Origin: Comamonadaceae bacterium
Lineage (GTDB): Bacteria > Pseudomonadota > Gammaproteobacteria > Burkholderiales > Burkholderiaceae_C
Length of the DNA: 51,507 nucleotides
Reading direction: 5' to 3'
NCBI GenBank assembly: GCA_947476285.1
Contig: CANJPU010000033.1
Coordinates: 1-51,507, forward strand
Shown here: piece by piece, positions 14,339-45,071 of the stretch
How the letters are laid out: each line of letters begins with the position of its first letter
Position numbering within the stretch: the first letter of the stretch is position 1
Position numbers and translations under genes: made by a program
Notes under the pieces: generated by a model
What the model was told of the DNA's origin: nothing
What the model saw: only the letters and a program-made list of their open reading frames with translations
The model's database searches: none

Positions 14339-14668
14339 GATGAATACCTCAGAGATGATGACGCGCGGAAACACTGTAAACGAGAACAACAAGGGCAACT
14401 GATGATTTCGAGAAGCCGAAATTGTATCCTTGATTTAGAAATTATGCCAGCACGCATGCATGCTAAGTCAACAGCGATTTCGAAAAGAAGTAGGCATTCG
14501 ATTGTCGAGCTGATGAACAGCTCTTCCCTGGCTTGCCCCTGATGAATTGCAATGGTAGGCTTCCCCCATTCGATACATCTCTGCGGCAACCGACACATCG
14601 ACGAGTTGTCAGTCCGGCGGCCGCACACGCCGCGCTGACTGCAGCGTGTGCGGCTTGCGGTGCAATCC
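14339..14668. promoter_or_regulatory. Divergent intergenic region with IclR-type dyads
   Basis: This 330-base gap holds no gene. It is AT-richer than its flanks and carries a perfect 6-bp-arm dyad at 14405-14422 (ATTTCG-N6-CGAAAT), an 8-bp palindrome TTTCGAAA at 14478-14485, a TTCGATTG half-site at 14497-14504 and a GCATGCATGC palindrome at 14454-14463. The first three resemble elements upstream of other operons in this window and may control both the Bug gene and the acyl-CoA ligase gene. Confidence 0.55.
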
Positions 14669-16297
14669 ATGAACACCAGCTTTCCCCTGCCAGCTCTTTC
14701 CTTCCCCAACGTGCTGGCTCACCACGTGGCGCGCAATGGCACCAAGGTGTTTCTGACTGAACTCGCCACAGGGCGCAAGTGGACTTTCAGCGAGTTGGAT
14801 GCCTGGTCAAATCGGCTGGCCAATGGGCTGTACGCCCTGGGCGTTGCGCATGGCACGCATGTGGGTCTGCTGATGGGAAATTGTGCCGAGCACCTGGCGC
14901 TGTTTCTTGCGCTGGGCAAGTTGGGCGCGGTCTATGTGCCTGTCAACACGGCTGCGCGCGGTGAGCTGCTGCGCTATTACTTTGCCCATGCGAGCGTGCG
15001 GCTCGTGATCGCCGATGAAGAACTTGCACCGCGCCTGGCGGACGTGCTCATTGATTTGCCCGAGCTGCAAGACGTGGTGCTGGCGGGCCGCGCCGGCGCA
15101 GGTGCTGATCTGTCGAGTCTGACCTGGGCTCGCCCTGTGCACGATCTGGCCGCCATGACCGCGAGCGCGTCAGACATGCCGGTGCAAGCAGACATTCATT
15201 GCCACACCCTGCTCATGCTGGCCTACACCTCGGGCACCACAGGGCCTTCCAAGGCAAGCATGCTGTCCCATGCGGCGGCGCTGAGCTACGGCACGGGCGG
15301 GATCGAGGCCCACGGTTATCGACAGAGCGATGTGTTCTATGTCTGCCTGCCTTTGTTCCACGTCAATGCGCTGCTCACATCCACCGCGACCGCACTGGTG
15401 TCGGGCGCGTCGGTGGTGCTGGCAGAACGCTTCTCGGCTTCCAACTTCTTCGACGAAATCCGCGCCTGCAAGGCGACCACCACCAACCTGCTGGGGGCCA
15501 TGACCAACTTTCTATGGTCACGCCCGCCCCAGGCCAGCGATGCGGACAACGCCCTGCGCCTGGTCAGCATGTCGCCCTTGCCCAAGTTCACGCCCGAGTT
15601 CGAGAAGCGATTCGGATTGAAGGCGGTGACCAATTACGGTTTGTCCGACTTTGGCACCGTCACCTCCTACCCTGCTGGCTCACCCATTGAGAAGCTCGGA
15701 TCCATCGGCAAGCCGCGTAGCTATTTCGAGGCGAGGATCATCGATGAGAACGACATGGAATGCGCGCCCGATGTGATTGGCGAAATTGCCTTGCGCACCC
15801 GTGAACCCTGGCGCGCCGCGACCGGCTATTACAAAATGCCAGAGGCCACTGCAGCAGCCAATCGCAATCAATGGTTCCACACCGGCGACCGCGCTTACAG
15901 AGACGCAGATGGCTACCTGTGGTTCGTCGACCGCAAGAAAGACTGCATCCGCCGGCGCGGCGAAAACATCTCGGCCTTTGAAGTGGAGCAGGTCATCACC
16001 AGCCATCCCGCCGTAGGCTCAGCAGCGGTGTTTCCAGTGAGCACGGCGGAGAAGGACGAGGAAGTGGGCGCGGCAGTGGCGCTGCGAGAAGGCGCGGTGC
16101 TCACCGAGCGCGAACTCATCGAACACTGCGCACAGAACATGAGTTACTTCATGGTGCCGCGCTACATTCAGTTCATGCCCGAGCTGCCCACCACGATGAA
16201 CCAGAAGATCGAGAAATTCAAGCTCAAGCAGGCCATGGAAGCCGCTCTCGATACGGTGTGGGATCGCGAGCGGGCCGGGATTGTGCTGGCCCGCTGA
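14669..16297 (+). CDS. AMP-forming acyl-CoA synthetase 1
   Basis: A 542-residue member of the ANL superfamily that activates a carboxylic acid to its CoA thioester through an acyl-adenylate. The P-loop reads 'LAYTSGTTGPSKASM', the A5 motif 'NYGLSDFG', the hinge 'TGDRAYRDADGYLWFVDRKK' and 'RRGENIS', and the catalytic Lys region is 'MNQKIEKFKLKQ'. The start is ATG 14669; the open frame begins slightly earlier. The substrate is unknown. It is transcribed rightward from the divergent promoter region and converges with the DUF35 gene. A second ligase (22478-24088) belongs to the same island. Confidence 0.9.
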   Translation: MNTSFPLPALSFPNVLAHHVARNGTKVFLTELATGRKWTFSELDAWSNRLANGLYALGVAHGTHVGLLMGNCAEHLALFLALGKLGAVYVPVNTAARGELLRYYFAHASVRLVIADEELAPRLADVLIDLPELQDVVLAGRAGAGADLSSLTWARPVHDLAAMTASASDMPVQADIHCHTLLMLAYTSGTTGPSKASMLSHAAALSYGTGGIEAHGYRQSDVFYVCLPLFHVNALLTSTATALVSGASVVLAERFSASNFFDEIRACKATTTNLLGAMTNFLWSRPPQASDADNALRLVSMSPLPKFTPEFEKRFGLKAVTNYGLSDFGTVTSYPAGSPIEKLGSIGKPRSYFEARIIDENDMECAPDVIGEIALRTREPWRAATGYYKMPEATAAANRNQWFHTGDRAYRDADGYLWFVDRKKDCIRRRGENISAFEVEQVITSHPAVGSAAVFPVSTAEKDEEVGAAVALREGAVLTERELIEHCAQNMSYFMVPRYIQFMPELPTTMNQKIEKFKLKQAMEAALDTVWDRERAGIVLAR

Positions 16298-16314
16298 GAT
16301 TGCGCCCGGGTGGT

Positions 16315-16332
16315 GCCTGATCGGCATCAGGC
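16315..16332. terminator. Hairpin between convergent genes
   Basis: GCCTGAT-CGGC-ATCAGGC is a perfect 7-bp stem between the acyl-CoA ligase stop and the DUF35 stop, overlapping the latter. It lacks a T tract on either strand, so it is only a candidate bidirectional terminator or mRNA-end stabiliser. Confidence 0.35.
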
Positions 16333-16749
16333 CGGATCAAACACCAGATCAGCCCGGCCATTGCCGGTCACAAATCGCGCCTGCACCGGCTGCCCGATCT
16401 TGAGCGGCGTCTCTGTCGGCCAACGCCCCAGTGCGCGCACGCCTTCTTCCAGATCGACCGTGACGATGGTGTAGGGCACTTCGCTTGCGAAGCCCTTGTG
16501 GAAGGCATGATGCGAGATGGTCCAACTGTGTACTTTGGCTCGGCCGCTCGATTGCACCCACTCGACCGCGTCCGAGTAGCAAGCGTCGCATATCAGGCGC
16601 GGATAGTGGCGCACCTTGCCGCACGCTGTGCAGCGCTGCAGCACCAGGCGGCCTTGCGCGGCTGCTTCCCAGTAGGCCTTGGACAGCGCGCTGGGTTGGG
16701 GCAGTGGTTTTTCAACCGGAGCGGGGTTTGCGTTTGCGTTTGCGTTCAT
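16327..16749 (-). CDS. DUF35 (rubredoxin-like zinc ribbon / OB-fold) protein
   Basis: A 140-residue acyl-CoA-associated OB-fold protein. The N-terminal helix is followed by an intact zinc ribbon, 'RCTACGKVRHYPRLICDACY', with four Cys, then the OB-fold. DUF35 proteins form complexes with thiolase-like enzymes and feed or hold CoA thioesters. It starts at ATG 16749, four bases after the thiolase-like gene, with an AGGATAAAAAG ribosome binding site, so it is coupled to it. It is the last gene of the long leftward run. Contrast the second DUF35 protein (45072-45527), which has lost the cysteines. Confidence 0.85.
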   Translation of the reverse strand: MNANANANPAPVEKPLPQPSALSKAYWEAAAQGRLVLQRCTACGKVRHYPRLICDACYSDAVEWVQSSGRAKVHSWTISHHAFHKGFASEVPYTIVTVDLEEGVRALGRWPTETPLKIGQPVQARFVTGNGRADLVFDPA

Positions 16750-16753
16750 CTTT

Positions 16754-17914
16754 TTATCCTCTGCGCAAGATGGCCAGGGCGCCGTCGCCCAGATCGCCAT
16801 AGCCTGTGACCAGCCCGACTTGGGCATCCTTGACCTGGGCGCGTCCCGCATCGTGGCGAAGTTGGCGCACCAACTCCACGATATGGTTCAGGCCCCAGAC
16901 ATGCGCCTGCGACAGCAGTCCGCCATGTGTGTTGACCGGCAGCGCACCGCCAAGCTTGATGCGCCCGCCCCGCACGAAGGCGCCGCCCTCGCCTTTCTCG
17001 CAAAAGCCAGCGTCTTCCAATTGGCGGATGACGGCGTAGGTAAAGCAATCGTAGATTTCGGCGACGTTGATGTCAGCGGGGGTGACGCCCGCCATCTCGA
17101 AGGCGCGCTTGGCCGCCTTCTTGATGCCCAGGCTGGTCATGTCCGGTCGCTGCGTGATGGAGCCCGGTGAGTCCGGGTGACCTTCGGCGACACCGGAGAT
17201 ATACACACGCCGATGCTTGAGATCGGCTGCGCGCTCTGAACTGCTGACAATGATGGCCGCGCCGCCGTCACTCTCCAGGCTGCAATCGAGCAGCCGGAAT
17301 GGGTCGGTGATCATGCGCGAGTTGGCATGGTCTTCCAGCGTGATGGGCTTTTTCATGATCGCGTTGTCATTGAGCATCGCATGCTCGCGGTGAGCGACGG
17401 CGACCTCGCCGAAGTCCGACACACGGGTGCCGTAGAGCTCCATGTGGCGGCGGGCCATGGGCGCGTAGATTTGCGCCGGTGCGATCGAGCCCAGCGGGTA
17501 CTCGAACTCGGTGACATAGTGGAACTGCGGCATGGTGTGAATGCGCGCACCGGCCTTGTTGTTCAGGGCCGCCGCAGTGACGTTGCGCCCAAAGGTGATG
17601 AGCACATGGTTGCAAGCGCCCGACGCCACGGCAGCGGCCGCGCACTGCAAGGCCATGACAGGGCTTGCGCCGCCGTGCGGAATGAGCGCCGAGAAGCGCA
17701 GGTCAGGAATGCCAAAGTGGTCGATGAAATCATCGGCGGTGCCGCTGACGATGCCAATGGGAATCACGCCATCGATGTCCTTGGGCGTGATGCCCGCATC
17801 GTTGACTGCTTTGAGCGATGCTTCCAACTGCAGCTCAAAGGCTGATTTGTCGGACCCTCGCATGTATTTGGTTTCGCCCAGGCCCGTAACACAGGCTTTG
17901 TCTCGAAGTGACAT
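16754..17914 (-). CDS. Thiolase-like protein, SCP-x/Ltp2 type
   Basis: A 386-residue member of the lipid-transfer thiolase-like group. It starts at ATG 17914 behind a GGAGGGGTGA ribosome binding site; the longer frame is not used. The classic nucleophile Cys block is replaced by 'IPHGGASPVMALQCAAAAVASG', and the C-terminal GHP block by 'GGALPVNTHGGLLSQAHVWGL'. Such proteins paired with DUF35 partners include the retro-aldolase Ltp2 of steroid side-chain degradation. Here the DUF35 gene follows directly. The reaction may therefore be thiolysis or retro-aldol cleavage of a CoA thioester; the sequence does not decide. Confidence 0.85.
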   Translation of the reverse strand: MSLRDKACVTGLGETKYMRGSDKSAFELQLEASLKAVNDAGITPKDIDGVIPIGIVSGTADDFIDHFGIPDLRFSALIPHGGASPVMALQCAAAAVASGACNHVLITFGRNVTAAALNNKAGARIHTMPQFHYVTEFEYPLGSIAPAQIYAPMARRHMELYGTRVSDFGEVAVAHREHAMLNDNAIMKKPITLEDHANSRMITDPFRLLDCSLESDGGAAIIVSSSERAADLKHRRVYISGVAEGHPDSPGSITQRPDMTSLGIKKAAKRAFEMAGVTPADINVAEIYDCFTYAVIRQLEDAGFCEKGEGGAFVRGGRIKLGGALPVNTHGGLLSQAHVWGLNHIVELVRQLRHDAGRAQVKDAQVGLVTGYGDLGDGALAILRRG

Positions 17915-17933
17915 CTGTTCACCCCTCCATGGT

Positions 17934-19301
17934 TCAAGTTGTGGAAGCCACGCCAGGTGCTGACGTGGTACTGATCGAGGGCCGCTTGCCGGCCTGCTTG
18001 CGCTCGCGCGCAAGCTGCGCCCTGTAGAAAGTGGGGTCCAGCTCCAGCGCATAGCGCGGACTGCCCGGGTAGTGGTGACGCAAGAAAGCCTGCTCCTCTT
18101 CCATCACCATGCGCATCTGCATCTCATCTGGCAGGCGGAGGTCACCAAGAATCAATTCGCCTATCCATTCGGCCTGGTCGTCCATCATTCGGATGTTTCC
18201 GCCGCCAGCCACGTTGAACAATCCCATGAAGTAGAGGCCGCGCCGGCTGGGGTGCACCACACGCAGAAAGAGTTCCAGCCGGTGGCCCTCCAGCGGCCGC
18301 AAATGCGGCGCCAGAAACGGCAGATCCACCGAGTAGCCGGTGCCTGCGATCACCGCGTCGAAAGTCTGGCTGCTGCCGTCCACAAACTGCACCTCTTGCC
18401 CCTTGACCGACGCGATGCCCGGCTTGGCCTTGATGCGGTCCCACACAAAATGCGACATCAGGTTGGGATGGCTGGTCGGGTGGGTGCGGCTCTTGGGCGT
18501 GGTAAAACCCCACTGCTCCATGCGGCCGTGCACGATGCGTGTGAGCACTTCGCGGATCGTGCGGCGAACCGGCCAAGGCATCCACTTGCGCTCGAGCTTT
18601 CCCAGCACGCGCGAAGTGGGCACGCCAAACAGCATGCGCGGCATCACCAGCACCGGCGAGCGCGCCGAGATGGTCGTCGACTCGGTCACCACGCAGATGT
18701 CGGACGCAATGTCCACCGCGCTGTTGCCCATACCCACGACCAGCACCCGCTTGCCGCGGAAGGGTTCCGGGATGCGGTAGGTGTGCGAATGCAGATACTC
18801 GCCAGTGAATTGATCGCGCCACTCGGGGTGAGAGGGAATGCTTTGATGGCCGCTGGCAACAATGACCGCGTCAAAGTCGCCGCCATCGCCGTCTTGCAGC
18901 TTGAGGCGCCAGCGCTCACCCAGAGGCGAGACGCCAGTCACCCGTGACTTGAAGCGAATATGCGGCGTGACGCCAAAGCGCTCGGCATACGACTCCAGAT
19001 ACTGGCGCACCTTGCGGTGATCCGGGTAGAGCGGGCCGTCTTCTGGAAAAGGGTAGTCCCGATATGCGGTGACCTTGGCTTCGGAATTGAGGTGCAGCGA
19101 TTGGTACGCAGGCCCCATGCCGTTGTCATTGTCATAGACCCACAGGCCGCCAATGCAGGTGCCGATCTCATAGACCACCACCTCCACACCGCGCGCCAGC
19201 AGATGCCGCGCGGCGCACAGACCGGCTGCACCCGCACCAATCACCGCGACGCGTTTGCCAGCGGTTGCAGCGGCTGCAGTTCGGCTTGTGTTGTCAGTCA
19301 T
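17934..19301 (-). CDS. FMO-type flavin-dependent monooxygenase
   Basis: A 455-residue class B flavoprotein monooxygenase using FAD and NADPH. The FAD motif is 'VAVIGAGAAGLCAARHL', the second Rossmann motif is 'VLVVGMGNSAVDIASD', and the class fingerprint is 'FTGEYLHSHTY' (FxGxxxHxxxY), as in flavin-containing monooxygenases rather than Baeyer-Villiger enzymes. It may oxidise a heteroatom or a ketone. It sits between the thiolase-like gene and a Bug receptor, with 19- and 6-base gaps. It is one of five flavin monooxygenases in this island. Confidence 0.87.
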   Translation of the reverse strand: MTDNTSRTAAAATAGKRVAVIGAGAAGLCAARHLLARGVEVVVYEIGTCIGGLWVYDNDNGMGPAYQSLHLNSEAKVTAYRDYPFPEDGPLYPDHRKVRQYLESYAERFGVTPHIRFKSRVTGVSPLGERWRLKLQDGDGGDFDAVIVASGHQSIPSHPEWRDQFTGEYLHSHTYRIPEPFRGKRVLVVGMGNSAVDIASDICVVTESTTISARSPVLVMPRMLFGVPTSRVLGKLERKWMPWPVRRTIREVLTRIVHGRMEQWGFTTPKSRTHPTSHPNLMSHFVWDRIKAKPGIASVKGQEVQFVDGSSQTFDAVIAGTGYSVDLPFLAPHLRPLEGHRLELFLRVVHPSRRGLYFMGLFNVAGGGNIRMMDDQAEWIGELILGDLRLPDEMQMRMVMEEEQAFLRHHYPGSPRYALELDPTFYRAQLARERKQAGKRPSISTTSAPGVASTT

Positions 19302-19307
19302 GCGGAA

Positions 19308-20288
19308 TCAGTCCTTGGTGGCGCCAGACAGGCGCACCACGTCTTTCCACTTTACTCGCTCGCTTTCGGCGAAGATCTCCAACTCTCTGGGCGTAGACCC
19401 CACGGTCATCGCACCGATCTGAATGAATCGCTCCTTGACGGCTGGGTCCTTGGCGATTTCAAGGATAGCTGCCGACACCTTGTTGGCCACTGCCGCAGGT
19501 GTGCCCTTTGGCATCACGAATGCACCCCAGGAGGTGATGACGAAATCCTTGATGCCGGCCTCTGACATGGTGGGAATCTCGGGGAAAGCCGGCCAACGCT
19601 GCGGGCAGGTCACCGCCAAGGCCTTGGCCTTGCCGGCCTTGATCATGACCGAATAGTTGCCCAGGTTGTCAATGGCGAAGTCAGTGTCGCCGGCGAGCAG
19701 AGCCTGGACCGATTGCGGCCCCCCGCGAAACGGCACATGCACCGTGGAGATTCCGGTGCGGGTGCGGAACAACTCGGCAGACAGATGCGGCGTGGTGCCG
19801 ACACCGGAGGTGCCATAAGTCACGCCCTGAGGCTTGGCCTTGGCCCAGTCCAGGAACTCCTTGACCGTCTTGGCAGGGTGGGTGCCCGGCACGACCAGGG
19901 CATTGCAGTTCTCCCAGAATTTCGAGACATAGACATAGTCGGCCACCGAGTCATAAGGCATCTTGGGGACCAGGAACTGATTGATCGACAGCGTACCGAT
20001 GGTGGCCGAGATGATGGTGTGGCCGTCGGTGGCGTTCTTGCCGGCCTCCATGCCGATGTTGCCGCCGGCACCCGACTTGTTGTCCACGATCCATGTCTGG
20101 CCCAGTTTGGCGGCCAGCCGCTCCGCCATGACCCGCGTGAGCAAATCCGCAGTGCCCCCCGGCGGGAACGGAACGATGATCTTGACCGGCGCGGTCGGCC
20201 AGTTGTCTTGCGCATGAACGACGCCCAGAGCGACCGATGCGATGCAGGCCACCAAGGCCTGGCTCAGGAGACGATGGGTAGTTTTCAT
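19308..20288 (-). CDS. Bug/TctC-family periplasmic binding protein 2
   Basis: A 326-residue solute receptor with an N-terminal signal peptide ending 'VVHAQDN'. It has the family signatures 'VPFPPGGTADLLTRVMAERL' and 'VDNKSGAGGNIGMEAG'. It is placed inside the leftward catabolic run between the acyl-CoA dehydrogenase and FMO genes, without membrane components. It may capture the growth substrate or an exported intermediate. Ligand unknown. Confidence 0.88.
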   Translation of the reverse strand: MKTTHRLLSQALVACIASVALGVVHAQDNWPTAPVKIIVPFPPGGTADLLTRVMAERLAAKLGQTWIVDNKSGAGGNIGMEAGKNATDGHTIISATIGTLSINQFLVPKMPYDSVADYVYVSKFWENCNALVVPGTHPAKTVKEFLDWAKAKPQGVTYGTSGVGTTPHLSAELFRTRTGISTVHVPFRGGPQSVQALLAGDTDFAIDNLGNYSVMIKAGKAKALAVTCPQRWPAFPEIPTMSEAGIKDFVITSWGAFVMPKGTPAAVANKVSAAILEIAKDPAVKERFIQIGAMTVGSTPRELEIFAESERVKWKDVVRLSGATKD

Positions 20289-20330
20289 AAGCTGTCCTTG
20301 TTTGAATAAATGTGAGTTCCAGCAAGACGC

Positions 20331-21491
20331 TCATGCGTCCTTGCGTACCTTTGGCAATAGCGAATTGGCAATGATCTGCTTCATCACCTCAGTTGTGCCG
20401 CCGCCGATGCGGCTCATGCGTGCGTCGGCAAATGCGCGGGCAATCGGGTATTCCCACATATAGCCCCAGCCTCCGAAGAACTGCAGGCACTGGTCCATCA
20501 CCTTGCCTTGCAAGTCGGTGGTCACCAGCTTGCAGGAAGCGGCGTCGACCGGGTCGAGCTTGCCCTGCAAATGCAGCTCGATGCAACGGTCCAGGAAGAC
20601 ACGCTGCGCCAGCACTTCGGCATGCAGCCCGGCCAGCACGAAGCGCGTGTTCTGGAAATCGCCCAGAGTCTGACCGAACATTTTGCGGTCGGCGACATAG
20701 TCGCGCGTCCATTGCAGCGCCGCTTCGCAACTGGAGATGGCGCGAATCGCCTGGATCAGCCGCTCCTGCGCAAGCTGCGTCATCAGCACGCCAAAGCCGC
20801 CGCCCTCGGTGCCCAGAAGATTTTCGACTGGCACTTTCAAATCCGCGAAGAACAACTCCGCCGTGTCCTGGGCCTTGCAGCCGATCTTCTCAAGCTTGCG
20901 GCCACGGGTGAAGCCTTCCCGGTTGGTTTCCACCAGGATCAGGCTCACGCCCTTGGCGCGCTGCTTGGGATCGGTCTTGCAGGCCAGCAGCACCACGTCG
21001 GCGCTAAAGCCATTGGTGATGAACACCTTCTGGCCGTTGATGACGTAGTGATCGCCAGTGCGAATGGCCTGGGTGCGAATATTTTGCACATCGCTGCCAC
21101 CGGAAGGCTCACTCATGCCCAGTGCGACCACCACTTCGCCCTTGGCCATTTTGGGCAACCACTTGCGCTTTTGTTCTTCGGTGCCGAAATCCACCAGGTA
21201 GGGCGCGACGATGTCCGAGTGCAGATAGAACGTCGGGCCGGTCGCGCCCGCCCGGGCCATCTCTTCGATCAGGATGGCGCTGTGCAAAAAATCGCCGCCC
21301 ATGCCGCCGTATTCCTCGGGCACGTTGCAGCACAACAAGCCCAGCTCACCGGCCTTGAGCCAAAGCGAACGAGGCACCTGCCCGGCTTTTTCCCACTCGG
21401 CGTGAAACGGCATCACATGCTCATCGATGAAGCGCCTGACGGAATCTCGAAAGGCCTCGTGGTCGGCAGAAAAGAGGGTGCGTGGAATCAT
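20331..21491 (-). CDS. Acyl-CoA dehydrogenase, long-chain (LCAD)-like
   Basis: A 386-residue FAD acyl-CoA dehydrogenase that introduces an alpha-beta double bond and passes electrons to ETF. It shows 'SEPSGGSDVQNIRTQA', 'YVINGQKVFITNG' and the C-terminal 'FFGGWGYMWEYPIARAFADA'. The usual catalytic Glu of the MCAD C-terminal motif is Gly in 'RIGGGTTEVMKQ', but a Glu is present in 'AISSCEAALQWTRDY', the position used in long-chain and isovaleryl-type enzymes. The enzyme therefore looks active. It is part of the leftward run, with a 69-base gap to the cyclase-family gene upstream. Confidence 0.9.
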   Translation of the reverse strand: MIPRTLFSADHEAFRDSVRRFIDEHVMPFHAEWEKAGQVPRSLWLKAGELGLLCCNVPEEYGGMGGDFLHSAILIEEMARAGATGPTFYLHSDIVAPYLVDFGTEEQKRKWLPKMAKGEVVVALGMSEPSGGSDVQNIRTQAIRTGDHYVINGQKVFITNGFSADVVLLACKTDPKQRAKGVSLILVETNREGFTRGRKLEKIGCKAQDTAELFFADLKVPVENLLGTEGGGFGVLMTQLAQERLIQAIRAISSCEAALQWTRDYVADRKMFGQTLGDFQNTRFVLAGLHAEVLAQRVFLDRCIELHLQGKLDPVDAASCKLVTTDLQGKVMDQCLQFFGGWGYMWEYPIARAFADARMSRIGGGTTEVMKQIIANSLLPKVRKDA

Positions 21492-21560
21492 GATGACAAT
21501 CGGTCAGGTGTGTTGAATTGAATCTGTGGATGTTTTCGTAATTGACGCCGCCATCGGGCC

Positions 21561-22463: not shown

Positions 22464-22477
22464 GTTTGTTCCTTGAT

Positions 22478-24088: not shown

Positions 24089-24135
24089 ATCGCTGTCTTT
24101 CCAATTGTGAAACGGTCGATGCGGGGATGCGGCTG

Positions 24136-24693: not shown

Positions 24694-24717
24694 GGCTGGC
24701 GGTCCAATGTTTCCTTG

Positions 24718-27404: not shown

Positions 27405-27440
27405 GCGCTCTTGCATCCTTTCCTCATGGCTCCAAAATGA

Positions 27441-30102: not shown

Positions 30103-30122
30103 GAAATGGTCTCCCGGAAACG

Positions 30123-30989: not shown

Positions 30990-31019
30990 GTGGTGCCTTC
31001 GTTGCGACGGGGTTGGAGC

Positions 31020-32249: not shown

Positions 32250-32326
32250 TGCGGTCTCCTTAGATTTGCACGCATTGCGCGTGACTTGTTCACAAAACAA
32301 ACAACCAACCAAAAGAATGGCTGACA

Positions 32327-32365
32327 AATTCGAATTATCGAAATCTAGTTTGGATTTTCGAAAAT
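32327..32365 (-). promoter_or_regulatory. Candidate IclR-type operators upstream of the livK run
   Basis: Two dyads lie 78-116 bases upstream of livK: 32327-32344 contains TTCG-AATTAT-CGAA, and 32354-32365 is the perfect palindrome ATTTTCGAAAAT. The intergenic region 32250-32434 serves only this run, since the SDR gene on the other side ends here. The same TTCG-N6-CGAA form recurs at three other promoters of the island. Confidence 0.55.
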
Positions 32366-32434
32366 TCTATCATCAAGCCCGTTTTAAGCAATATGGACTT
32401 TTCATCAAAACGGGACTGTTCGCGTCGCCCGACG

Positions 32435-33166: not shown

Positions 33167-33202
33167 GATGTCTTCCTCTGCGGCTCTCGCCTTGCTGTGG
33201 TT

Positions 33203-33859: not shown

Positions 33860-33863
33860 GATG

Positions 33864-35177: not shown

Positions 35178-35240
35178 GGCAATGACTCGTGCGTAGGGGG
35201 TTGATGAAAGACGGGGAATGTCGCTGCGCTGGCAGGACAA

Positions 35241-35735
35241 TCAGCGGATAAGTGACTTCAGATAGTCCTCACCCAGACCGACTTCGCGGCAGTGCTTGCC
35301 GTAGCGGTCCAGGCGCAGAAACACATCGTCGTAGTCGACTGCGTCGCCTTTTTCGTCCACATAGATCAAGGGGCCGAACACATGGAACAGCGCCGTCATG
35401 TGGCCCACTGTTGGGTCAATGTACAAAGTGTGGATGTGGCCGGCCGGCTCATAGGCGAAGCTGCCGGCACGCGCGACCCAGTCGTGCTCGCGGTAGCCCC
35501 AGGCACCGTCGATGGTCCAGGCGGTGACGGGCGCGGCGTGCCTGTGGCGCTGAATGGTGCCCTGGCCTTGCGCCTTGAGAATGCTGATCCAGCCACCATT
35601 GGTGACGTCAAACATGAGCGGCCGCACCATGCCGAGCTTGCCAAGCGCGTACCAGCGCTTGTCAACGACCATCACGTCGGGATCGAACATTTCGGGGCGG
35701 GTGTAGGGAGAAACAGGCACGTTGATCATCGGCAT
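35241..35735 (-). CDS. Cupin of the 2,4'-dihydroxyacetophenone dioxygenase family
   Basis: A 164-residue single-domain cupin resembling 2,4'-dihydroxyacetophenone dioxygenase (DAD). Motif 1 is 'IQRHRHAAPVTAWTIDGAWG' with metal-ligand His residues; motif 2 lies in 'GSFAYEPAGHIHTLYI'. DAD cleaves the C-C bond between carbonyl and hydroxymethyl groups with a non-haem iron. The start is ATG 35735 with AGGAAAA upstream. It is the first gene of its operon, directly below an operator-rich promoter, and lies just downstream of BVMO 2. Substrate identity is not proven. Confidence 0.75.
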   Translation of the reverse strand: MPMINVPVSPYTRPEMFDPDVMVVDKRWYALGKLGMVRPLMFDVTNGGWISILKAQGQGTIQRHRHAAPVTAWTIDGAWGYREHDWVARAGSFAYEPAGHIHTLYIDPTVGHMTALFHVFGPLIYVDEKGDAVDYDDVFLRLDRYGKHCREVGLGEDYLKSLIR

Positions 35736-35762
35736 GTGATTTTTCCTCATCATTGGAGATTT

Positions 35763-35800
35763 ATACTAGATAGTATCTTGCAGATACCGCATAGTATATC
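35763..35800 (-). promoter_or_regulatory. Dyad-rich operator region, candidate TetR site
   Basis: The 101-base gap between the BVMO 2 stop and the cupin start holds nested inverted repeats: ATACTA-GA-TAGTAT (35763-35776) and GTATC-TTGCA-GATAC (35773-35787), followed by another AGTATATC. TetR-family proteins bind such dyads, and a tetR gene is in the operon downstream. This is also the likely promoter of the cupin-LLM-tetR-SDR set. Confidence 0.5.
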
Positions 35801-35836
35801 GGTCTTACCCTGAGATTGCCGCCCAGACCAGGGCGA

Positions 35837-37465
35837 TCAGGCTGGCTGGGGCTGACCGGAAAAGGCAAAGCCCCGGTAGCCGGCCTTGATCACGTCCTCG
35901 CAGATGACTGTGTAGTTGCCAAAGCCACCGACATAGGGCAAAAACACGCGCGGCTTGCCCGGGATGTTGGCCCCCATGTACCAGGACTTGGTCGTGGGAA
36001 ACAGTGTCTGGTCAGCCACCTCATTGACGTGCTTGACCCATTCGTCCTCGGCCGTCTGGCGCGGCTCGGCAATGGTCTGGCCGCTGGCCTGCATGTGCGC
36101 GATGCAGCGCGAGATCCAATCCACATGCTGCTCGATGGCCACGATCACATTGGTCAGCACCGAGGGGCTGCCCGGCCCGGTGATGAAGAACAGATTGGGA
36201 TAGCCAGCCGTCATGATGCCCAGATAGGTCTTGGGGCCGTGCGACCACTTGTCTTTGAGCGCGACACCTGCGCGGCCGCGGATCTCGATGCGGTCAATCG
36301 AGCCGGTGACCGCGTCGTAGCCAGTGGCAAAGACGATGCTGTCGAGCGCGTAGGTATCACTGGCGGTGCGGATGCCCTCGGGCACGATGGTCTCGATGGG
36401 TGCCGCACGCAGGTCATGCAGCTTCACATTCGGCCGGTTGAAGGTGGCGTAATAGTCGCTGTCCACGCAGATGCGCTTGGTGCCGATCGCGTGATCGCTG
36501 GGGGCAAGCAGCGCCGCAGTCTTGGGGTCGCGCACGATGCTGCTGATCTTATTGCGTACGAACTGCGCCGCCTGATCATTGGACACACGGTTGATGAAGA
36601 TATCGTTGAATGCGTGCGTGAAGTTGGCCCCGCCGCGCTGCCAACGCCGTTCATACTCAGCCTGGCGCTCAGCCTCGTCCACATCGGCGGTAGCACGCAG
36701 GCTGTACTGGTACAGGATGCCCGAGCGGGTGTTGCGCGCCCGCTCGCGATGCTCGACGTAATTGGCTTTCCAGGCATCCTGCTCCTCTTGGGGCAAGGGC
36801 CGGTTCCACGCGGGGATGCTGAAGTTGGGCGTGCGCTGGAACACCACCAGCTCGCTGGCCTGACGCGCGATCACTGGAATCGCCTGGATGCCCGATGAGC
36901 CGGTGCCGATCACACCCACACGCTGCCCGGTGAAGTCGATCTTTTCATGCGGCCAGGTACCGGTGTGGTACCACTTGCCCTTGAAATCGGCCAAGCCCGC
37001 AACCTCCGGAACCCGCGCGGCCGACAGGCAGCCCGCAGCCGAAATCAAGAAGCGGCAATTGATCTCTTCACCCTTGTCGGTGCGCACGGTCCAGCGCCCG
37101 GTATTCTCGTCCAGATCTGCACTTGTGACGCGGGTTTCGAGCTGGATGTCGCGGCGCAAGTCGAAGCGGTCGGCCACATGATTGATGTAGCTCAGAATTT
37201 CGGCCTGCGCTGGATATCGCTCGGTCCATTTCCACTCCTGCTGGAGCTGCTCGTCGAAGGAGTAGGAATACTGCATGCTCTCCACATCGCAACGTGCGCC
37301 GGGGTAGCAGTTCCAGTACCAGGTGCCGCCAACGCCATCGCCCGCTTCGAACACCTGTGTGTTCAAGCCCAGCTTGCGCAGGCGGTGAAGCATGTAGAGG
37401 CCGGCAAATCCGGCACCGATCACCACTGCATCGGTCTGCCTGGCCATGGAAGGTGCGGTGTTCAT
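35837..37465 (-). CDS. Type I Baeyer-Villiger monooxygenase 2
   Basis: A 542-residue FAD/NADPH monooxygenase, a paralogue of the enzyme at 25791-27404. It has the FAD motif 'AVVIGAGFAGLYMLHRLR', the complete fingerprint 'FKGKWYHTGTWP' and the NADPH motif 'VGVIGTGSSGIQAIP'. The start is ATG 37465 with AGGAG eight bases before it; the open frame extends upstream without similarity. The alpha/beta hydrolase gene ends 32 bases upstream in the same direction, the classic BVMO-esterase pair that oxidises a ketone and hydrolyses the ester. Confidence 0.93.
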   Translation of the reverse strand: MNTAPSMARQTDAVVIGAGFAGLYMLHRLRKLGLNTQVFEAGDGVGGTWYWNCYPGARCDVESMQYSYSFDEQLQQEWKWTERYPAQAEILSYINHVADRFDLRRDIQLETRVTSADLDENTGRWTVRTDKGEEINCRFLISAAGCLSAARVPEVAGLADFKGKWYHTGTWPHEKIDFTGQRVGVIGTGSSGIQAIPVIARQASELVVFQRTPNFSIPAWNRPLPQEEQDAWKANYVEHRERARNTRSGILYQYSLRATADVDEAERQAEYERRWQRGGANFTHAFNDIFINRVSNDQAAQFVRNKISSIVRDPKTAALLAPSDHAIGTKRICVDSDYYATFNRPNVKLHDLRAAPIETIVPEGIRTASDTYALDSIVFATGYDAVTGSIDRIEIRGRAGVALKDKWSHGPKTYLGIMTAGYPNLFFITGPGSPSVLTNVIVAIEQHVDWISRCIAHMQASGQTIAEPRQTAEDEWVKHVNEVADQTLFPTTKSWYMGANIPGKPRVFLPYVGGFGNYTVICEDVIKAGYRGFAFSGQPQPA

Positions 37466-37497
37466 GAATGAATCTCCTGGATGGGTGTTCGCACGCC

Positions 37498-38472
37498 TCA
37501 CGCGGCGCGTTGCGCGACGGGAATGCCTTGGTGGAGTGCATGCCCGATGGCCGCCCCGACGAAATCGACGATCAGGTTGCTCGCACGCACCTGCTTGCCC
37601 TGCATCAGCATGCCGTGCATGTGGTCTCCCAGATGCAAGTAGGTGACGCGCACGCCCTGCGCTTCCAGGCGCTGCGCATAGGCGCGCCCCTCGTCGCACA
37701 AAGGGTCATGCGCAGTGGTCACCACCAGCGCCGGCGGCGTGCCAGCCAGACTGGACGCGAGAATGGGAGATGCGCGCCAATCAAGCCTGTCTTTCGCATC
37801 GGGCGTGTAGTGGCCGATGAAGTAATGCATGGTGGCCGCAGTGAGCGGCACGCCTGAAGTCACCCGTTCATAGGAGCCGGTGTTGGCACGCAGATCGACC
37901 GTCGGATAGATCAGCGCCTGAAACATGGTGGCTGGCGCAAGCCCGTCGCGGCCCATGATCGCGAGCACGGCTGCCAGGTTGCCACCGGCGCTATCGCCGC
38001 CGATGGCGATGCGCTCGGGTGCGATGGCCAGTGCGCCAGCGTTGGCAGCTACCCATTCAAGTGCGCTCGCACTGTCATCCAATGCGGCAGGAAACACATG
38101 CTCTGGTGCTAGCCGGTAGTCCACCGCCACAACGCAGACTCGGGCCCGATTGGCAAAACTGCGGCACAGGCGATCATGGCTGTCCAGGTTGCCGATGACC
38201 CAGCCGCCGCCATGCAAGTACACAAGGCAGGGCAAGACCTCTTGCGCCCCGGTGCCGGCTGCGCGATAAATACGCAGATTCACTTCGCCATGCTTGCCCG
38301 TGATGGTGACGTCCCGCACCAGCGCCACATCCTGTGCAGGGGGCTGCAGAAAATCCCAGCTCGCGGCGTATGCGGCGCGCGCTTCCTGCGGCGAGAGCTT
38401 TTCAAAAGGAGGCCGCCCGAGGGAACTCACCAACTCAAGCAGTTTGGCAACATCAGGATCAAAAGCCGGCAT
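37498..38472 (-). CDS. Alpha/beta hydrolase, HSL-type carboxylesterase
   Basis: A 324-residue esterase of the hormone-sensitive-lipase family. The oxyanion motif is 'YLHGGGWVIGN', the nucleophile elbow 'IGGDSAGGNLAAV', the acid Asp in 'TTAHDPLCDEG' and the His in 'GDHMHGML'. There is no signal peptide, so it is cytoplasmic. It probably hydrolyses the ester or lactone made by the following BVMO. The start at ATG 38472 has GGAG upstream. It is the first gene of its set, divergent from the bicupin gene across a palindrome-rich promoter. Confidence 0.92.
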   Translation of the reverse strand: MPAFDPDVAKLLELVSSLGRPPFEKLSPQEARAAYAASWDFLQPPAQDVALVRDVTITGKHGEVNLRIYRAAGTGAQEVLPCLVYLHGGGWVIGNLDSHDRLCRSFANRARVCVVAVDYRLAPEHVFPAALDDSASALEWVAANAGALAIAPERIAIGGDSAGGNLAAVLAIMGRDGLAPATMFQALIYPTVDLRANTGSYERVTSGVPLTAATMHYFIGHYTPDAKDRLDWRASPILASSLAGTPPALVVTTAHDPLCDEGRAYAQRLEAQGVRVTYLHLGDHMHGMLMQGKQVRASNLIVDFVGAAIGHALHQGIPVAQRAA

Positions 38473-38568
38473 GGCGTACTCCGGTGGATGGATCGAAGCT
38501 GGACGATGCGCGCAGCTCAGGGAATAATGCTTGACGCCCCGAATGCGAAACTGTATCGTTCCTGAAAA

Positions 38569-38611
38569 CGAAAATATTTTCGCATAATCGAAACGACGCA
38601 AGTATACTTGC
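38569..38611. promoter_or_regulatory. Palindrome cluster in the hydrolase/bicupin divergent promoter
   Basis: Within the 164-base gap three dyads are packed: a perfect 14-bp palindrome CGAAAATATTTTCG (38569-38582), an overlapping TTTCG-CATAAT-CGAAA (38578-38593), and a second perfect 14-bp palindrome GCAAGTATACTTGC (38598-38611) with a TATACT -10 element for the rightward gene inside it. The first two fit an IclR-type site, the third resembles the TetR-type region at 35763-35800. Confidence 0.6.
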
Positions 38612-38636
38612 AATGCATCTGAGGAGGTAGTCGATT

Positions 38637-39416
38637 TTGATTTCCCAACAAACTCTGGATCATGCGCGGCCCAGCCGCACCCGTGTCGACAAACCGGAGT
38701 TTGCCGGCTTCAAGACCGAGCTCATCAACCCAGAGCTGGTCTCGACCACACCGCGGCCCCAGGCCTTTCTGGTCGAGCAGACGTCCAACTGGACGCTGCC
38801 CACCCACTTTCACGAAGAACACCAATTCCAGGTTTTCGTGGCGGGCGGCGGCTTCCTTGGCAAACACCCGATCGAGCACCTGGCGGTTCATTACGCGTCG
38901 CCGCACTCGGCCTACGGCCCATTGATTTCGGGCGAAGAAGGCATTTCCTATTTCACCTTGCGCGCCGTTGGCGACGTCGGCGCCTGGTACATGCCTGAGC
39001 AGCGCGCGCATTTGCAGCTTCGCATCCCCAAGCGGCAAGCCCATGGTGCACCGAGCACGCACATGACGGACGAAGAGTTGCGGGCGCTCACCCAGGCCCA
39101 GGAGGAAACCTTGATCCCTGCGGAAGAAAGCGGACTCGCGGCCTGGATGGTACGAGTGCCCGCGGGGCAAACCATCGCACCGCCAACGACGCAACACGCG
39201 GGCGGCGGCCGCTTCTACGTGGTCACTCAGGGCTCACTCTTGCGCGGGCAGGAAGAGTTGCTCGGGCTGGCGACCGTGTTCGTCTCAAACGACGACAAAA
39301 TCGAGCTGCAGGCCGGCCCCAATGGGCTGCAAGTCATTATTCTGCAGTATCCTCTGGCCGGCGCGAGCTCCTTCATCGAAGCACAGAAGCGCAATCAAAC
39401 TGGCCAGAGCGCGTGA
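38637..39416 (+). CDS. Two-cupin-domain protein
   Basis: A 259-residue bicupin. The N-terminal cupin has 'LPTHFHEEHQFQVFVAGGG' with His-x-His and a later His; the C-terminal half, 'WMVRVPAGQTIAPPTTQHAG' onward, is a second cupin-like barrel. Function is unknown: it could be a metal-dependent enzyme or a ligand sensor for the IclR regulator that follows. The start is TTG 38637, supported by a strong GAGGAGG site nine bases upstream. It is probably co-transcribed with the IclR gene 49 bases on. Confidence 0.75.
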   Translation: MISQQTLDHARPSRTRVDKPEFAGFKTELINPELVSTTPRPQAFLVEQTSNWTLPTHFHEEHQFQVFVAGGGFLGKHPIEHLAVHYASPHSAYGPLISGEEGISYFTLRAVGDVGAWYMPEQRAHLQLRIPKRQAHGAPSTHMTDEELRALTQAQEETLIPAEESGLAAWMVRVPAGQTIAPPTTQHAGGGRFYVVTQGSLLRGQEELLGLATVFVSNDDKIELQAGPNGLQVIILQYPLAGASSFIEAQKRNQTGQSA

Positions 39417-39465
39417 GATTTTCTTTCACGCGGCCCCGGCCGTTCCTTTCAACTTCCATCCCGCA

Positions 39466-40278
39466 ATGAGTCCTGACCGCTACCTGCGCACCTTCGATCT
39501 TCTTGATCTGCTGGTTCAACACAAAGATGGCCTGCGCCTGACAGAGATCAAGGAAGCGCTTGACCTGCCGGTCAGCAGCGTCCACAACATGCTCCAGACC
39601 ATGGTGACGGCCGACGTCGCCACCGTGAGTGAGGACCTGCGCTATTTTGTCGGCCCACGCGCGATTCAGCTCGCACTGCGCACGCTGCAGTCGCTGGACA
39701 TCCGCACCATCGCACGGCGCTATCTGCAAGAACTGGCCAAGACCATTGGAGACGATGTGTACTTCGCCATGCGAGTGGGCAGGCGCGTCTTCTACGCCGA
39801 CCGTTGCCTGGGTACGCAGCGCGTTTCGCTCGACATCCGGCTGGGCGAACCGCTCTTTCTGCACAGCACGGCCACCGGCAAGCTGTTCGCCGCCTTCGAC
39901 AGCAAGCTGGCAGCTCAGGCTCTGTCTGGACGACTGACCAAGCTCACACCCATGACATTGACCAATGCGGATGACCTCAAGCAAGAATTCGAGCACATCC
40001 GCGAGCTCGGCTATGCCAAGAGCGCGCAAGAATCTGTGGAAGGCATCGTCGGTTATGCGGTTCCCATCCGCGATGCGTCGGGCCAGATCGCCGCAGCCAT
40101 CCATGCATCGGTGCTGGGCAACCGCGCCACCAAGTCGCATGAACGCAAGCTGCTCAGCGCGGCGCATGAATGCGCCGAGCAGATCGAAAGGCAGTTGGGC
40201 AACTTCGGCCGCACAGGCGGGTCGCGCGCCGGGCGTGACGAGTCGGCACCGACCACGAAGGCAGTGCGCGCAGCATGA
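39466..40278 (+). CDS. IclR-family transcriptional regulator
   Basis: A 270-residue regulator. The N-terminal winged helix-turn-helix reads 'GLRLTEIKEALDLPVSSVHN'; the C-terminal GAF-like effector domain includes 'GEPLFLHSTATGKLFAAF' and 'VEGIVGYAVPIRD'. IclR proteins of Burkholderiales commonly control aromatic and carboxylate catabolism and bind short dyads. It lies in the centre of the island, and TTCG-N6-CGAA dyads occur at four nearby promoters. ATG 39466 is chosen over the longer frame because family proteins start just before the HTH. Its stop overlaps the next ATG (ATGA). Confidence 0.93.
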   Translation: MSPDRYLRTFDLLDLLVQHKDGLRLTEIKEALDLPVSSVHNMLQTMVTADVATVSEDLRYFVGPRAIQLALRTLQSLDIRTIARRYLQELAKTIGDDVYFAMRVGRRVFYADRCLGTQRVSLDIRLGEPLFLHSTATGKLFAAFDSKLAAQALSGRLTKLTPMTLTNADDLKQEFEHIRELGYAKSAQESVEGIVGYAVPIRDASGQIAAAIHASVLGNRATKSHERKLLSAAHECAEQIERQLGNFGRTGGSRAGRDESAPTTKAVRAA

Positions 40279-40470
40279 GCACCGCTGAAAAAACGACGCC
40301 CGCAACAGCGGCTGCGTCGCCTCGGGCCAAGCCTGCCACTGCGTTGGGTGGCCTCGAGATCCTCGATGCCAGCCGGCTGCTGCGCGCGGCAGTTCGAACA
40401 ACTCGACGAGCTGTTCGCACAGCGCGCCCGCGCTGACACCGCATCTCAAACTCAAAGGAGCAGTCAATGA
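40275..40470 (+). pseudogene. Small frameshifted ORF between the IclR and Bug genes
   Basis: ATG 40275 overlaps the IclR stop. The frame gives 'MSTAEKTTPATAAASPRAKP' and then 'LGGLEILDASRLLR' before ending at 40436 in Arg-rich text with poor GC3. Skipping one base in the GCGCGCGG run (about 40384-40389) instead gives 'RQFEQLDELFAQRARADTAS' with normal codon use. That frame ends in a TGA at 40468-40470 overlapping the Bug ATG as ATGA. Coupled overlaps at both ends suggest a real gene of about 65 codons with a one-base insertion. Product not recognised; a sequencing error or an accidental frame are alternatives. Confidence 0.4.
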
Positions 40471-41492
40471 ATGACGCCAGGCAACCCCAGTCCCAGACTC
40501 GCGCGCAAGCGCCCTCCCTCACTCGCCGTGTCGCAAGCATGGGCCTGCTGATGGGCGCACTCGCATTCGGTGGTGCCACGCAGGCGCAGGCGCAGACCTA
40601 TCCAGACAAGCCGGTGCGCCTGGTGGTGGGCTTCGCTCCCGGCGGCTCGGACATCTCCGCGCGCATCGTGGCGCAAAAGCTCTCGGTGCTGTGGGGCCAC
40701 CAAGTCATCGTGGACAACCGCGCTGGCGCAGCGGGCAACATCGGCGCGGACTTGGTCTCACGGGCCGCGCCGGACGGCTACACATTGCTCTTGTGCGTCA
40801 ACTCCTACACCATCAACACCAGCGTCTACCGCAACCTCTCGTGGGATCTGCTGCGCGACTTCGCACCGGTGGGCCTCTATGCCGCCTCACCGCTGGTGGT
40901 GGTGGTCAACGACAAGATGCCGGCGCGCAACTTCAACGAGCTGCTCGCCTACGCCAGGGCCAACCCCGGCAAACTGAACTACGGCTCTGCCGGCACCGGC
41001 ACCGCGCCGCATCTGGCGGTGGAGTTGTTCGCCCAGAAGACCAACCTGAGCATGACGCACATCCCCTACAAGGGCTCGGCCCCTTCGGTCACCGCGCTGC
41101 TGGCCAACGAAGTGCAGTTTGCCTTCGGCGCGCTCTCGGCCTTCGACGCATTCATCAAGGCCGGCCGCCTGCGCCCGCTGGCGGTGACCACGGCCACACG
41201 CTATTCCCGGCTGCCCGATACTCCCACTGTCAGAGAAGTCAGCGGCATTGCCGACTTCGACGTGGACATCTGGTATGGCCTGCTGGCCCCAGCCAAGACG
41301 CCCTCTGCCATCATTCGCAAGCTCAGTGAAGACCTGAAGAAAGTGCTGGCCGACCCTGACACGCAGAACAAGCTGCGGGAGGCGGGCGTCGAGCCCGCCT
41401 ACATGGACCCGCAGCAACTGGGCGACCTGATGAAGCGCGACGTCGAGCGCTGGCGCGATGTCGCAACCCGCCTGAAGATCACGCTGGACTGA
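40467..41492 (+). CDS. Bug/TctC-family periplasmic binding protein 3
   Basis: A 341-residue receptor. ATG 40467 has AAAGGAG upstream; a long signal peptide ends 'ATQAQAQ', and the mature part opens 'TYPDKPVRLVVGFAPGGSD' with 'VDNRAGAAGNIGADLVSRA'. It lies between the IclR gene and an SMP-30 gene, again with no membrane genes. It may deliver ligand to a transporter encoded elsewhere or act in signalling. Confidence 0.9.
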   Translation: MNDARQPQSQTRAQAPSLTRRVASMGLLMGALAFGGATQAQAQTYPDKPVRLVVGFAPGGSDISARIVAQKLSVLWGHQVIVDNRAGAAGNIGADLVSRAAPDGYTLLLCVNSYTINTSVYRNLSWDLLRDFAPVGLYAASPLVVVVNDKMPARNFNELLAYARANPGKLNYGSAGTGTAPHLAVELFAQKTNLSMTHIPYKGSAPSVTALLANEVQFAFGALSAFDAFIKAGRLRPLAVTTATRYSRLPDTPTVREVSGIADFDVDIWYGLLAPAKTPSAIIRKLSEDLKKVLADPDTQNKLREAGVEPAYMDPQQLGDLMKRDVERWRDVATRLKITLD

Positions 41493-41506
41493 ACTGGACG
41501 AGCGCA

Positions 41507-42460
41507 ATGGAAACACCTGTGCAAATTGGGGACGCAGGTTTGTCCTTCGTCGGCACTGATCTTCACCGGCCAGAGTGCGTGCTGGCCACCGCATCGGGCA
41601 GGCTGTTTGTCTCCGACCGCCGCGGCGGCGTGACGGTGATAGAGCCTGATGGTCACCAGCACAGACTGGGCACCTCCAGCCTGATGCCCAACGGCATTGC
41701 GCTGCAACGCGACGGCAGCTTCCTGGTGGCCAACCTCTCGCCAGAAGGCGGCGTCTGGCGCATTGGCACCGACGGCACAGTGCTGCCCTGGCTCATGGAA
41801 GTGGACGGCGTGAAGCTGCCCGGCGTGAACTTCCTGCAGAGCGACGCCGAAGGCCGCACCTGGATCGGCGTGAGTGCCACGCACACCGGCGACCACTACC
41901 CCATCGACGACGCCACTGGCTACATCATTCTTCATCACCAGGGCGCCAGCCGTGTCATCGCCGATGGTCTGCGCTACACCAATGAATTCCGCATGAGCGC
42001 GGATGGCCGCTTCATGTATGTGGTGGAGACCTTCGGTCGCCGGCTATCGCGCTTTCGGATCGCATCCGATGGCCGCCTGATCGAGCGCGCCACGGTGGCC
42101 GAGTTCGACGCGGGCGACATCCCCGACGGCATGGCGCTTGATGTGGAAGGCGGCGCATGGGTGGTTTGCGTAGTCAGCAACCGCGTCTACCGCATCACCC
42201 CGGACGGCAAGCGCCACACGCTGATCGACGACTCCGACCCAGCGACCCTTGAACGGATCGAGGCCGCCTACGTCTCGCGCACCCTCACACGCCCCATGCT
42301 TTCCGCCGCCAGCGGCCGCCGGCTGAAGAACATCACCAGCATCGCGTTCGGTGGGCCTGACATGCGCACCGCGTGGATGGGCTGCCTGGGAGGCAACACA
42401 CTCACCCGCTTTCGCTCGCCCGTGGCGGGCCTCAAGCCCGCGCACTGGCACTGGGCCTGA
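41507..42460 (+). CDS. SMP-30/gluconolactonase/LRE-family lactone hydrolase
   Basis: A 317-residue six-bladed beta-propeller of the SMP-30 family. It shows 'RPECVLATASGRLFVSDRRGG', 'MPNGIALQRDGSFLVANLSPEG' and 'YTNEFRMSADGRFMYVVETFGRR', with acidic and Asn metal ligands. These calcium or zinc enzymes hydrolyse lactones. In this island it is a natural candidate to open a BVMO-derived lactone. It begins 14 bases after the Bug 3 stop, in the same operon. Confidence 0.88.
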   Translation: METPVQIGDAGLSFVGTDLHRPECVLATASGRLFVSDRRGGVTVIEPDGHQHRLGTSSLMPNGIALQRDGSFLVANLSPEGGVWRIGTDGTVLPWLMEVDGVKLPGVNFLQSDAEGRTWIGVSATHTGDHYPIDDATGYIILHHQGASRVIADGLRYTNEFRMSADGRFMYVVETFGRRLSRFRIASDGRLIERATVAEFDAGDIPDGMALDVEGGAWVVCVVSNRVYRITPDGKRHTLIDDSDPATLERIEAAYVSRTLTRPMLSAASGRRLKNITSIAFGGPDMRTAWMGCLGGNTLTRFRSPVAGLKPAHWHWA

Positions 42461-42501
42461 CGGCCTTGATCGCACGGAGGTCGGCGCAGGCCACCTCTTC
42501 C

Positions 42502-42602
42502 ATTGAGATTCGATTGAGATTCGATTGAAGAAAGCACTATGCGCCTCGAATCTTGTCTGATATACTTTTTCGATTGTTTGGATTATTGTTCGAGTTTTCG
42601 AA
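42502..42602 (+). promoter_or_regulatory. Operator-rich promoter of the thiolase operon
   Basis: The 225-base gap before the first thiolase-like gene holds 11-bp tandem repeats (unit ATTGAGATTCG, 42502-42528), a TATACT -10-like element (42561-42566), three TTCGATTG half-sites (42509, 42520, 42569) and the dyad TTCG-AGTTTT-CGAA (42589-42602). This suggests a separately controlled promoter responding to the same factor as the other island promoters. Confidence 0.5.
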
Positions 42603-45039: not shown

Positions 45040-45071
45040 ACAAGACTTTCACCGGAACAAAGGAAATCAAA

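Follow-up and report, generated by a model that had tools for sequence, protein, structure and literature searches.

A tandem TTCG-N6-CGAA palindrome as the predicted operator of an IclR-family regulator in a catabolic island of a Comamonadaceae bacterium

The window analysed here, which is the whole stretch of 51,507 bases of contig CANJPU010000033.1 (assembly GCA_947476285.1) from a Comamonadaceae bacterium, carries a catabolic island in which the palindromic dyad TTCG-N6-CGAA recurs in front of four sets of genes. Each copy is accompanied by a second dyad, and the resulting four elements are referred to below as operators 1 to 4. Operator 1 (14407..14440; dyads at 14407-14420 and, in degenerate form, 14427-14440) is located between the minus-strand gene of the TctC/Bug solute-binding protein TctC1 (13334..14338; PF03401, a family that we take to correspond to COG3181), which would be its target, and the plus-strand gene of acyl-CoA ligase 1 (14669..16297; PF00501), a further possible target. 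Operator 2 (32329..32362; dyads at 32329-32342 and 32349-32362) lies upstream of livK and thus of a minus-strand run (16327..32249) that is predicted to form one transcript and encodes LivKHMFG, a phenylacetone-monooxygenase-like FMO, a luciferase-like monooxygenase, a flavin reductase, ligase 2, a cyclase, an acyl-CoA dehydrogenase, a Bug protein, FMO1, a thiolase and an OB-fold protein. Operator 3 (38559..38592; a degenerate dyad at 38559-38572 and the dyad at 38579-38592) is found in the divergent promoter of abh and orf259-iclR. Its putative leftward targets (32435..38472, minus strand) encode the Abh hydrolase, FMO3, a cupin, an NtaA-family luciferase-like monooxygenase, a TetR-family regulator (33203..33859; PF00440, PF17932) and an SDR protein, and its putative rightward targets (38637..42460, plus strand) comprise orf259, the gene of the IclR-family regulator (39466..40278; PF09339, PF01614), tctC3 and a gene for an SMP-30/lactonase protein. 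Operator 4 (42569..42602; a degenerate dyad at 42569-42582 and the dyad at 42589-42602) precedes the thiolase operon (42686..50743, plus strand), which would be controlled by it and contains two thiolase-like genes and genes for an OB-fold protein, TctC4, an acyl-CoA synthetase of the ADP-forming type, a nitronate-monooxygenase-like protein and an enoyl-CoA hydratase. The protein families named in an earlier note on this DNA were recovered with Pfam, apart from orf259 (38637-39416), which had been called a bicupin and for which neither Pfam nor NCBIfam gave a match within the limits applied; orf259 adjoins the operator in several islands of other genomes, at 39-53% identity.

The earlier note had placed TTCG-N6-CGAA dyads at four promoters of the island, within less than 1 kb of non-coding DNA. 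All four are present, with 14-bp cores at 14407-14420, 32329-32342, 38579-38592 and 42589-42602; they are the only ones in the window, and the four intergenic regions that contain them add up to 904 bp. The intergenic location holds for the start codons that we consider most probable (ATG 14338 for TctC1, ATG 32249 for livK, ATG 38472 for abh, TTG 38637 for orf259 and ATG 42686 for the thiolase), which leave no dyad in coding sequence; upstream TTG codons open longer reading frames, and three of the four dyads are inside such frames or at most 10 bp away from them. The scan of the window and the genome that the note had proposed gave a window excess: the genome of 4,885,933 bases contains 77 dyads, or one per 63 kb, from which 0.81 would be expected in the window, so that the four observed are an approximately fivefold excess (Poisson P(>=4) = 0.0095). 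In shuffles of the window, a mean of 0.75 dyads was obtained and four were reached in one of 100. It could be argued that AT-rich intergenic DNA yields TTCG/CGAA palindromes by itself and that the four copies are coincidental, and the modest excess of single dyads is in keeping with this view; shuffles of the four intergenic regions, however, contained only 0.06 dyads on average. Local GC content is 0.36-0.45 at the four window sites versus 0.54-0.67 at the first 15 of the 77 genomic dyad places. A test of third-position GC content (GC3), by which the background dyads at these 15 places were to be recognised as coding, was dropped because the four window sites also score as coding-like, and the test therefore does not discriminate. 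With 77 dyads in the genome, the counting of single dyads is insufficient as proof and provides modest evidence for an operator; the decision thus rests on conservation and on the second dyad 20 bp away.

At all four window sites, TTCG-N6-CGAA is one half of a 34-bp element whose other half is a second, weaker dyad at a distance of exactly 20 bp. The dyad form proposed in the earlier note was correct as far as it went, and the operator is a pair of such dyads rather than a single one. A dyad matrix was trained on ten sites upstream of the iclR genes of other species, with no window sequence in the training set. The four best matches of this matrix in the window are the four dyads, and matches five to nine (32349, 14427, 32357, 38559 and 42569) all lie within the same four operators. 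The scores of the two dyads, in the order of their positions, are 18.8 and 15.1 for operator 1, 27.9 and 16.8 for operator 2, 13.4 and 22.4 for operator 3, and 12.5 and 24.4 for operator 4. When offsets of 14-60 bp on both sides of each primary dyad were compared, the best partner was found at exactly 20 bp in every case, with an offset of +20 for operators 1 and 2 and of -20 for operators 3 and 4. The same distance prevails in 19 stretches from relatives, some of them near-duplicates (L041 and L042 were replaced by L023 and L024 from the same contigs): 20 pairs of matches are 20 bp apart, 13 are separated by 8 bp and seven by 28 bp, both of which reflect the palindrome shifted on itself, and no other distance up to 80 bp is seen more than six times. 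When all 4,352 four-letter dyads were ranked de novo over 18 iclR upstream regions from relatives, TTTC-N8-GAAA and TTCG-N6-CGAA came joint first with nine of 18 each; together, they form one 16-bp palindrome, and the ideal half, or consensus, from the relatives is TTTCGAAATTTCGAAA. Two loci, L046 (a near-duplicate of L030) and the remnant L047, were left out of the ranking and of the matrix training and were kept in a spacer count of 20 relative loci (328,619 bp). In this count, N6 is the commonest TTCG/CGAA spacer between 0 and 15, with 23 matches, followed by N1 with 17 and N10 with 14; for two control patterns with the N6 spacer, 12 and 8 matches were counted. Each operator thus has four half-sites, one every 10 bp, on the same face of the helix.

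For a genome-wide search, the dyad pair was described by R1, a sequence-only model of 44 columns built from 18 pairs that were hand-picked from the relatives' pair list, with the near-duplicates L044 and L045 left out, L032 added and the window excluded. Among the 150 of 268 first-look candidates that were scored in the bacterium's own 4.89-Mb genome, the four window promoters are the four best places, with E-values of 1.4e-4 for operator 2, 4.0e-4 for operator 1, 0.0025 for operator 3 and 0.066 for operator 4; the next place has an E-value of 0.15.

The occurrence of the element in other genomes follows that of the iclR gene. Among 147 related genomes, made up of the bacterium's own and 146 others, IclR orthologs (E<=1e-60) were detected in two of the others, and a scan of species genomes yielded 22 iclR loci, 20 of which share 59-78% identity with the window's protein, including the remnant L047; L048 and L049 (22-27% identity) were excluded from all counts. 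With stricter filters, R1 matches at E<=0.02 were present in seven of the 147 related genomes. These are the three IclR carriers, with five, two and six matches, and four genomes with one match each, a number to be compared with approximately three expected by chance. R1 matches were found in 18 of the 19 genomes that have an IclR match; the best E-value of a genome never exceeds 0.008, and its strong matches are mostly located on one contig. Some of these 19 genomes supplied training pairs for R1, which the window and the Rhodococcus plasmids described below did not. The nineteenth genome (G163, 7.1 Mb) has only two iclR fragments (L047, around 10001-10267) and no operator match at E<=0.5, and this remnant without operator is a natural negative control.

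The element is also found before orthologous genes, in agreement with the conservation that the earlier note had named as a check. The window and a further 29 stretches, which had been selected around R1 matches, together contain 55 operator places, for which either a 20-bp pair with a summed score of 26 or a single dyad with a score of 22 was required. Outside the window, operators occur before livK in five genomes, before the thiol2 operon in six (two of them near-identical) and between abh and orf259 in three, and they are repeatedly seen before the ligase 2, iclR and TctC3/TctC4 genes of relatives. Two of the 55 were scored as lying inside a gene, namely the place in the window at which abh is read from an upstream TTG (instead of ATG 38472) and the matching place in L124; both calls are judged to come from an overlong abh reading frame, the cause being assumed to be the same for L124. 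Two copies of iclR were observed close together in L029 (227-967 and 3742-4482, which are 65% and 78% identical to the window's gene) and likewise on the contig shared by L028 and L036 (74% and 67%). Among the relatives, the cultured Glaciimonas immobilis DSM 23240 (L037) carries both the regulator gene and operators. L039 (CALQKH020000001.1) is labelled Akkermansia muciniphila, yet it carries the island, whose other occurrences are in Burkholderiales; a mislabelled genome or a mixed bin is the probable cause.

When plasmids were searched with the IclR protein, two Rhodococcus megaplasmids were found, pRZP2 (L143) and pRop44186_a (L144), which encode regulators with 49-50% identity. In both, homologs of FMO1 and ligase 2 are neighbours of iclR, and pRZP2 additionally carries homologs of thiolase 1, OB1, ECH, the cyclase and ACAD. 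On the plasmid of 744,754 bp, all eight R1 matches at E<=1 (five places, best E 0.0011) fall in 40,646-56,550, with iclR at 41,736-42,578; on the plasmid of 926,330 bp, pRZP2, all three matches at E<=1 (two places) fall in 581,217-588,726, with iclR at 581,269-582,117. The matches are thus clustered within 16 kb around iclR on the former and within 8 kb on the latter. Three dyad pairs at 20-bp spacing are present on the R. opacus plasmid, and on pRZP2 the strongest dyads are unpaired among the top matches and one weak 20-bp pair (15240/15260) is found. Besides the shuffled intergenic regions, two findings speak against a coincidental origin of the four window dyads: each of them has a partner at exactly 20 bp, and the element is conserved before orthologous genes as well as in Rhodococcus. 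We consider such an origin practically negligible.

The protein encoded at 39466-40278 belongs to the IclR family, with 41.3 bits for PF09339 (cut-off 22) and 125.5 bits for PF01614 (cut-off 24), and the residues P35, S37, S38, H40 and N41 of its recognition helix are invariant in all 20 aligned IclR proteins. Its gene lies downstream of operator 3 in the window, and in many relatives an operator directly precedes iclR. The operators co-occur with the IclR gene, and IclR is therefore the likely binder, which lends support to the earlier reading of the dyads as the operator of the island's IclR regulon. That reading had passed over the TetR-family regulator at 33203-33859, whose gene is situated in the leftward run behind the dyad of operator 3 and whose own operators could be the dyads, since TetR-family proteins likewise bind palindromic operators. 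This protein has homologs (53-56% identity) in seven of the 19 operator-bearing genomes, in two of them (G152 and G154) within approximately 2 kb of an operator. In ten of the 19 IclR-bearing genomes, however, no TetR match was obtained at E<=1e-30, most of these being draft assemblies, and all ten have operator matches. Moreover, the loci of TetR homologs in G006 and G028 and of a paralog in the bacterium's own genome (L025-L027) contain neither a TTCG-N6-CGAA dyad nor an R1 match, and in Rhodococcus the operators surround the IclR gene, with no TetR protein annotated in the fetched plasmid stretches, the gene tables of which may be incomplete. Control of the dyads by the TetR-family regulator is thus disfavoured by co-occurrence and appears very unlikely.

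How IclR would act on its operators is suggested by their geometry and by their position relative to the promoters. Since the half-sites are one helical turn apart, the two IclR dimers on the paired dyads would occupy the same side of the helix and form a dimer of dimers. Operators 1, 2 and 3 coincide in part with promoter-like hexamers (nine of 12 matches), and this overlap at three of the four sites is most simply explained by repression through occlusion of the promoters. Operator 3 would further allow iclR to regulate itself, and a pathway intermediate may release IclR from the DNA and thereby induce the genes. Alternatively, IclR could bind the operators and act mainly as an activator, much like PcaU and PobR. 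Its nearest NCBIfam model is TIGR02431 (PcaR/PcaU/PobR), at 106.5 bits far below the cut-off of 284.75 and hence outside that family, a group that includes activators such as PcaU and PobR, and the operator centres are approximately 61-104 bp away from the starts of TctC1, livK, abh, orf259 and thiol2 (approximately 245 bp for ligase 1). An activator is less easily reconciled with the promoter-like hexamers, which, weak as these matches are, overlap operators 1-3 and are not downstream of them, and with the operator before iclR itself in many relatives; we regard it as a possible, rather improbable mode of action. Taken together, TTCG-N6-CGAA is very probably half of a 34-bp double element that is bound by a dimer of dimers of the IclR protein, which is likely to repress its own gene along with the four promoters and to be released by a pathway intermediate.

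Several observations weigh against this proposal. The score of 18.8 for operator 1 is below the best chance match of 100 shuffles (21.3), no orthologous counterpart of its TctC1/ligase 1 promoter was found in the 30 stretches, and operator 4 is weak genome-wide (R1 E 0.066) and has no sigma-70-like match. The promoter matches amount to only nine of 12 positions, with non-overlapping candidates at sites 2 and 3 as well. In many copies the second dyad is degenerate, some strong dyads of relatives (e.g., L129:4524) have no 20-bp partner, and several of the counted operators (e.g., L131, L135 and L129:615) do not adjoin a recognised homolog of a window gene. Of the 55 operators counted, 23 had been part of the training of the matrix or of R1, in which the four of the window and the Rhodococcus sites had no share; moreover, near-duplicates occur among the relatives, and R1 matches guided the choice of the stretches. 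Many of the searched genomes are incomplete assemblies, the E-values of R1 are rough by the search tool's own statement, and the R1 matches on pRZP2 are individually weak (E 0.08-0.52).

Tandem IclR operators are a published principle, and the operator described here is of that kind. According to a survey by Suvorova and Gelfand (2021; PMC8222616), the operators of group 1 IclR proteins have a core palindrome TYCR-N5/6-YGRA, with which both TTCG-N6-CGAA and the consensus TTTCGAAATTTCGAAA agree. The survey also reports tandem palindromes with 18-22 nt between centres in 94 orthologous groups, which were read as tetramer sites; the 20 bp at all four window sites and in 20 pairs of the relatives fall within this range. 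Liv transporters and COG3181 are listed there among the co-regulated genes. In the subgroups that it describes, G/C edges (NGT-12-ACN) belong to the even-length (N6) sites and W edges (WTT-11-AAW) to odd-length sites only, whereas the present consensus TTTCGAAATTTCGAAA combines W edges with an even N6 spacing and is thus outside the four subgroups listed. The PcaR site GTTCGATAATCGCAC, as given in PMC12455658, shares a TTCG...CG core with the window dyad. PcaU differs in that it uses three boxes, whereas the window operator has two full dyads, and unlike in the PcaR/PcaU/PobR systems, no beta-ketoadipate genes were recognised among the island genes scanned. TtgV, a tetramer on DNA (2XRO), is a sequence relative of the window's IclR (E 1.1e-12) and regulates efflux. 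Its DNA contacts S48, T49, Q51 and R52 (PMC8222616) align with S37, S38, H40 and N41; the recognition residues differ, with V36 in place of R47, H40 in place of Q51 and N41 in place of R52, and another specificity is therefore expected. A protein search returned 324 IclR relatives at E<=1e-60, and the 120 that were listed carry generic IclR names or none. No description of this regulator or regulon was found in searches of open-licence literature, and the regulator, the operator and the regulon appear to be undescribed additions to the known principle of tandem IclR sites.

With these assignments, the island of some 34 genes can be proposed as a regulon for which a candidate regulator and an operator open to testing are named, and the operator model can be used as a sequence probe by which the same regulatory system is found in other genomes and plasmids. 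The presence of IclR, part of the breakdown module and operator matches on actinobacterial megaplasmids is taken from these sequences as a sign of horizontal spread. On balance, it seems plausible that IclR and the double operator with its 20-bp phasing form a single control cassette that is transferred together with the monooxygenase/thiolase module, and that the same DNA code, in which W edges are joined to an even N6 spacing although the published survey lists the two apart, has been kept from Burkholderiales to the Rhodococcus megaplasmids despite approximately 49% regulator identity and a reshuffled gene order. As regulator and operator appear to be paired across phyla, they offer a handle for finding the substrate, or inducer, and possibly a part for a biosensor.

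The nature of the substrate is hinted at by the closest relatives of known structure. For FMO2, these are phenylacetone and steroid monooxygenases; for Luc1, 3,6-diketocamphane monooxygenase; for FMO1, a flavin-dependent monooxygenase (8z12); for thiolase 1, a thiolase (4u4e) followed by lipid-transfer-type proteins; and for a Rhodococcus P450, CYP125. These similarities may point, in broad terms, to an alicyclic ketone or side chain or to a terpenoid-like substrate. An acid, a lactone or a CoA-type intermediate in the breakdown of such an alicyclic-ketone or terpenoid-like substrate probably serves as the effector, which is the weakest part of the proposed mechanism.

Further sites in the bacterium's own genome were considered and rejected as weak R1 matches, namely C14:38922, C112:3072, C81:15452, C42:9290 and C28:55567 (E 0.15-1.2). 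A paralog of the TetR-family regulator with 58% identity is encoded on contig 4 of this genome (L022/L027), beside homologs of ligase and TctC genes and without a dyad. On contig 81, a TctC1 homolog is preceded, at a distance of 167 bp, by a single dyad with a score of 19.4 (C81:2627; L077) that lacks a partner at 20 bp; this place is a possible fifth member of the regulon.

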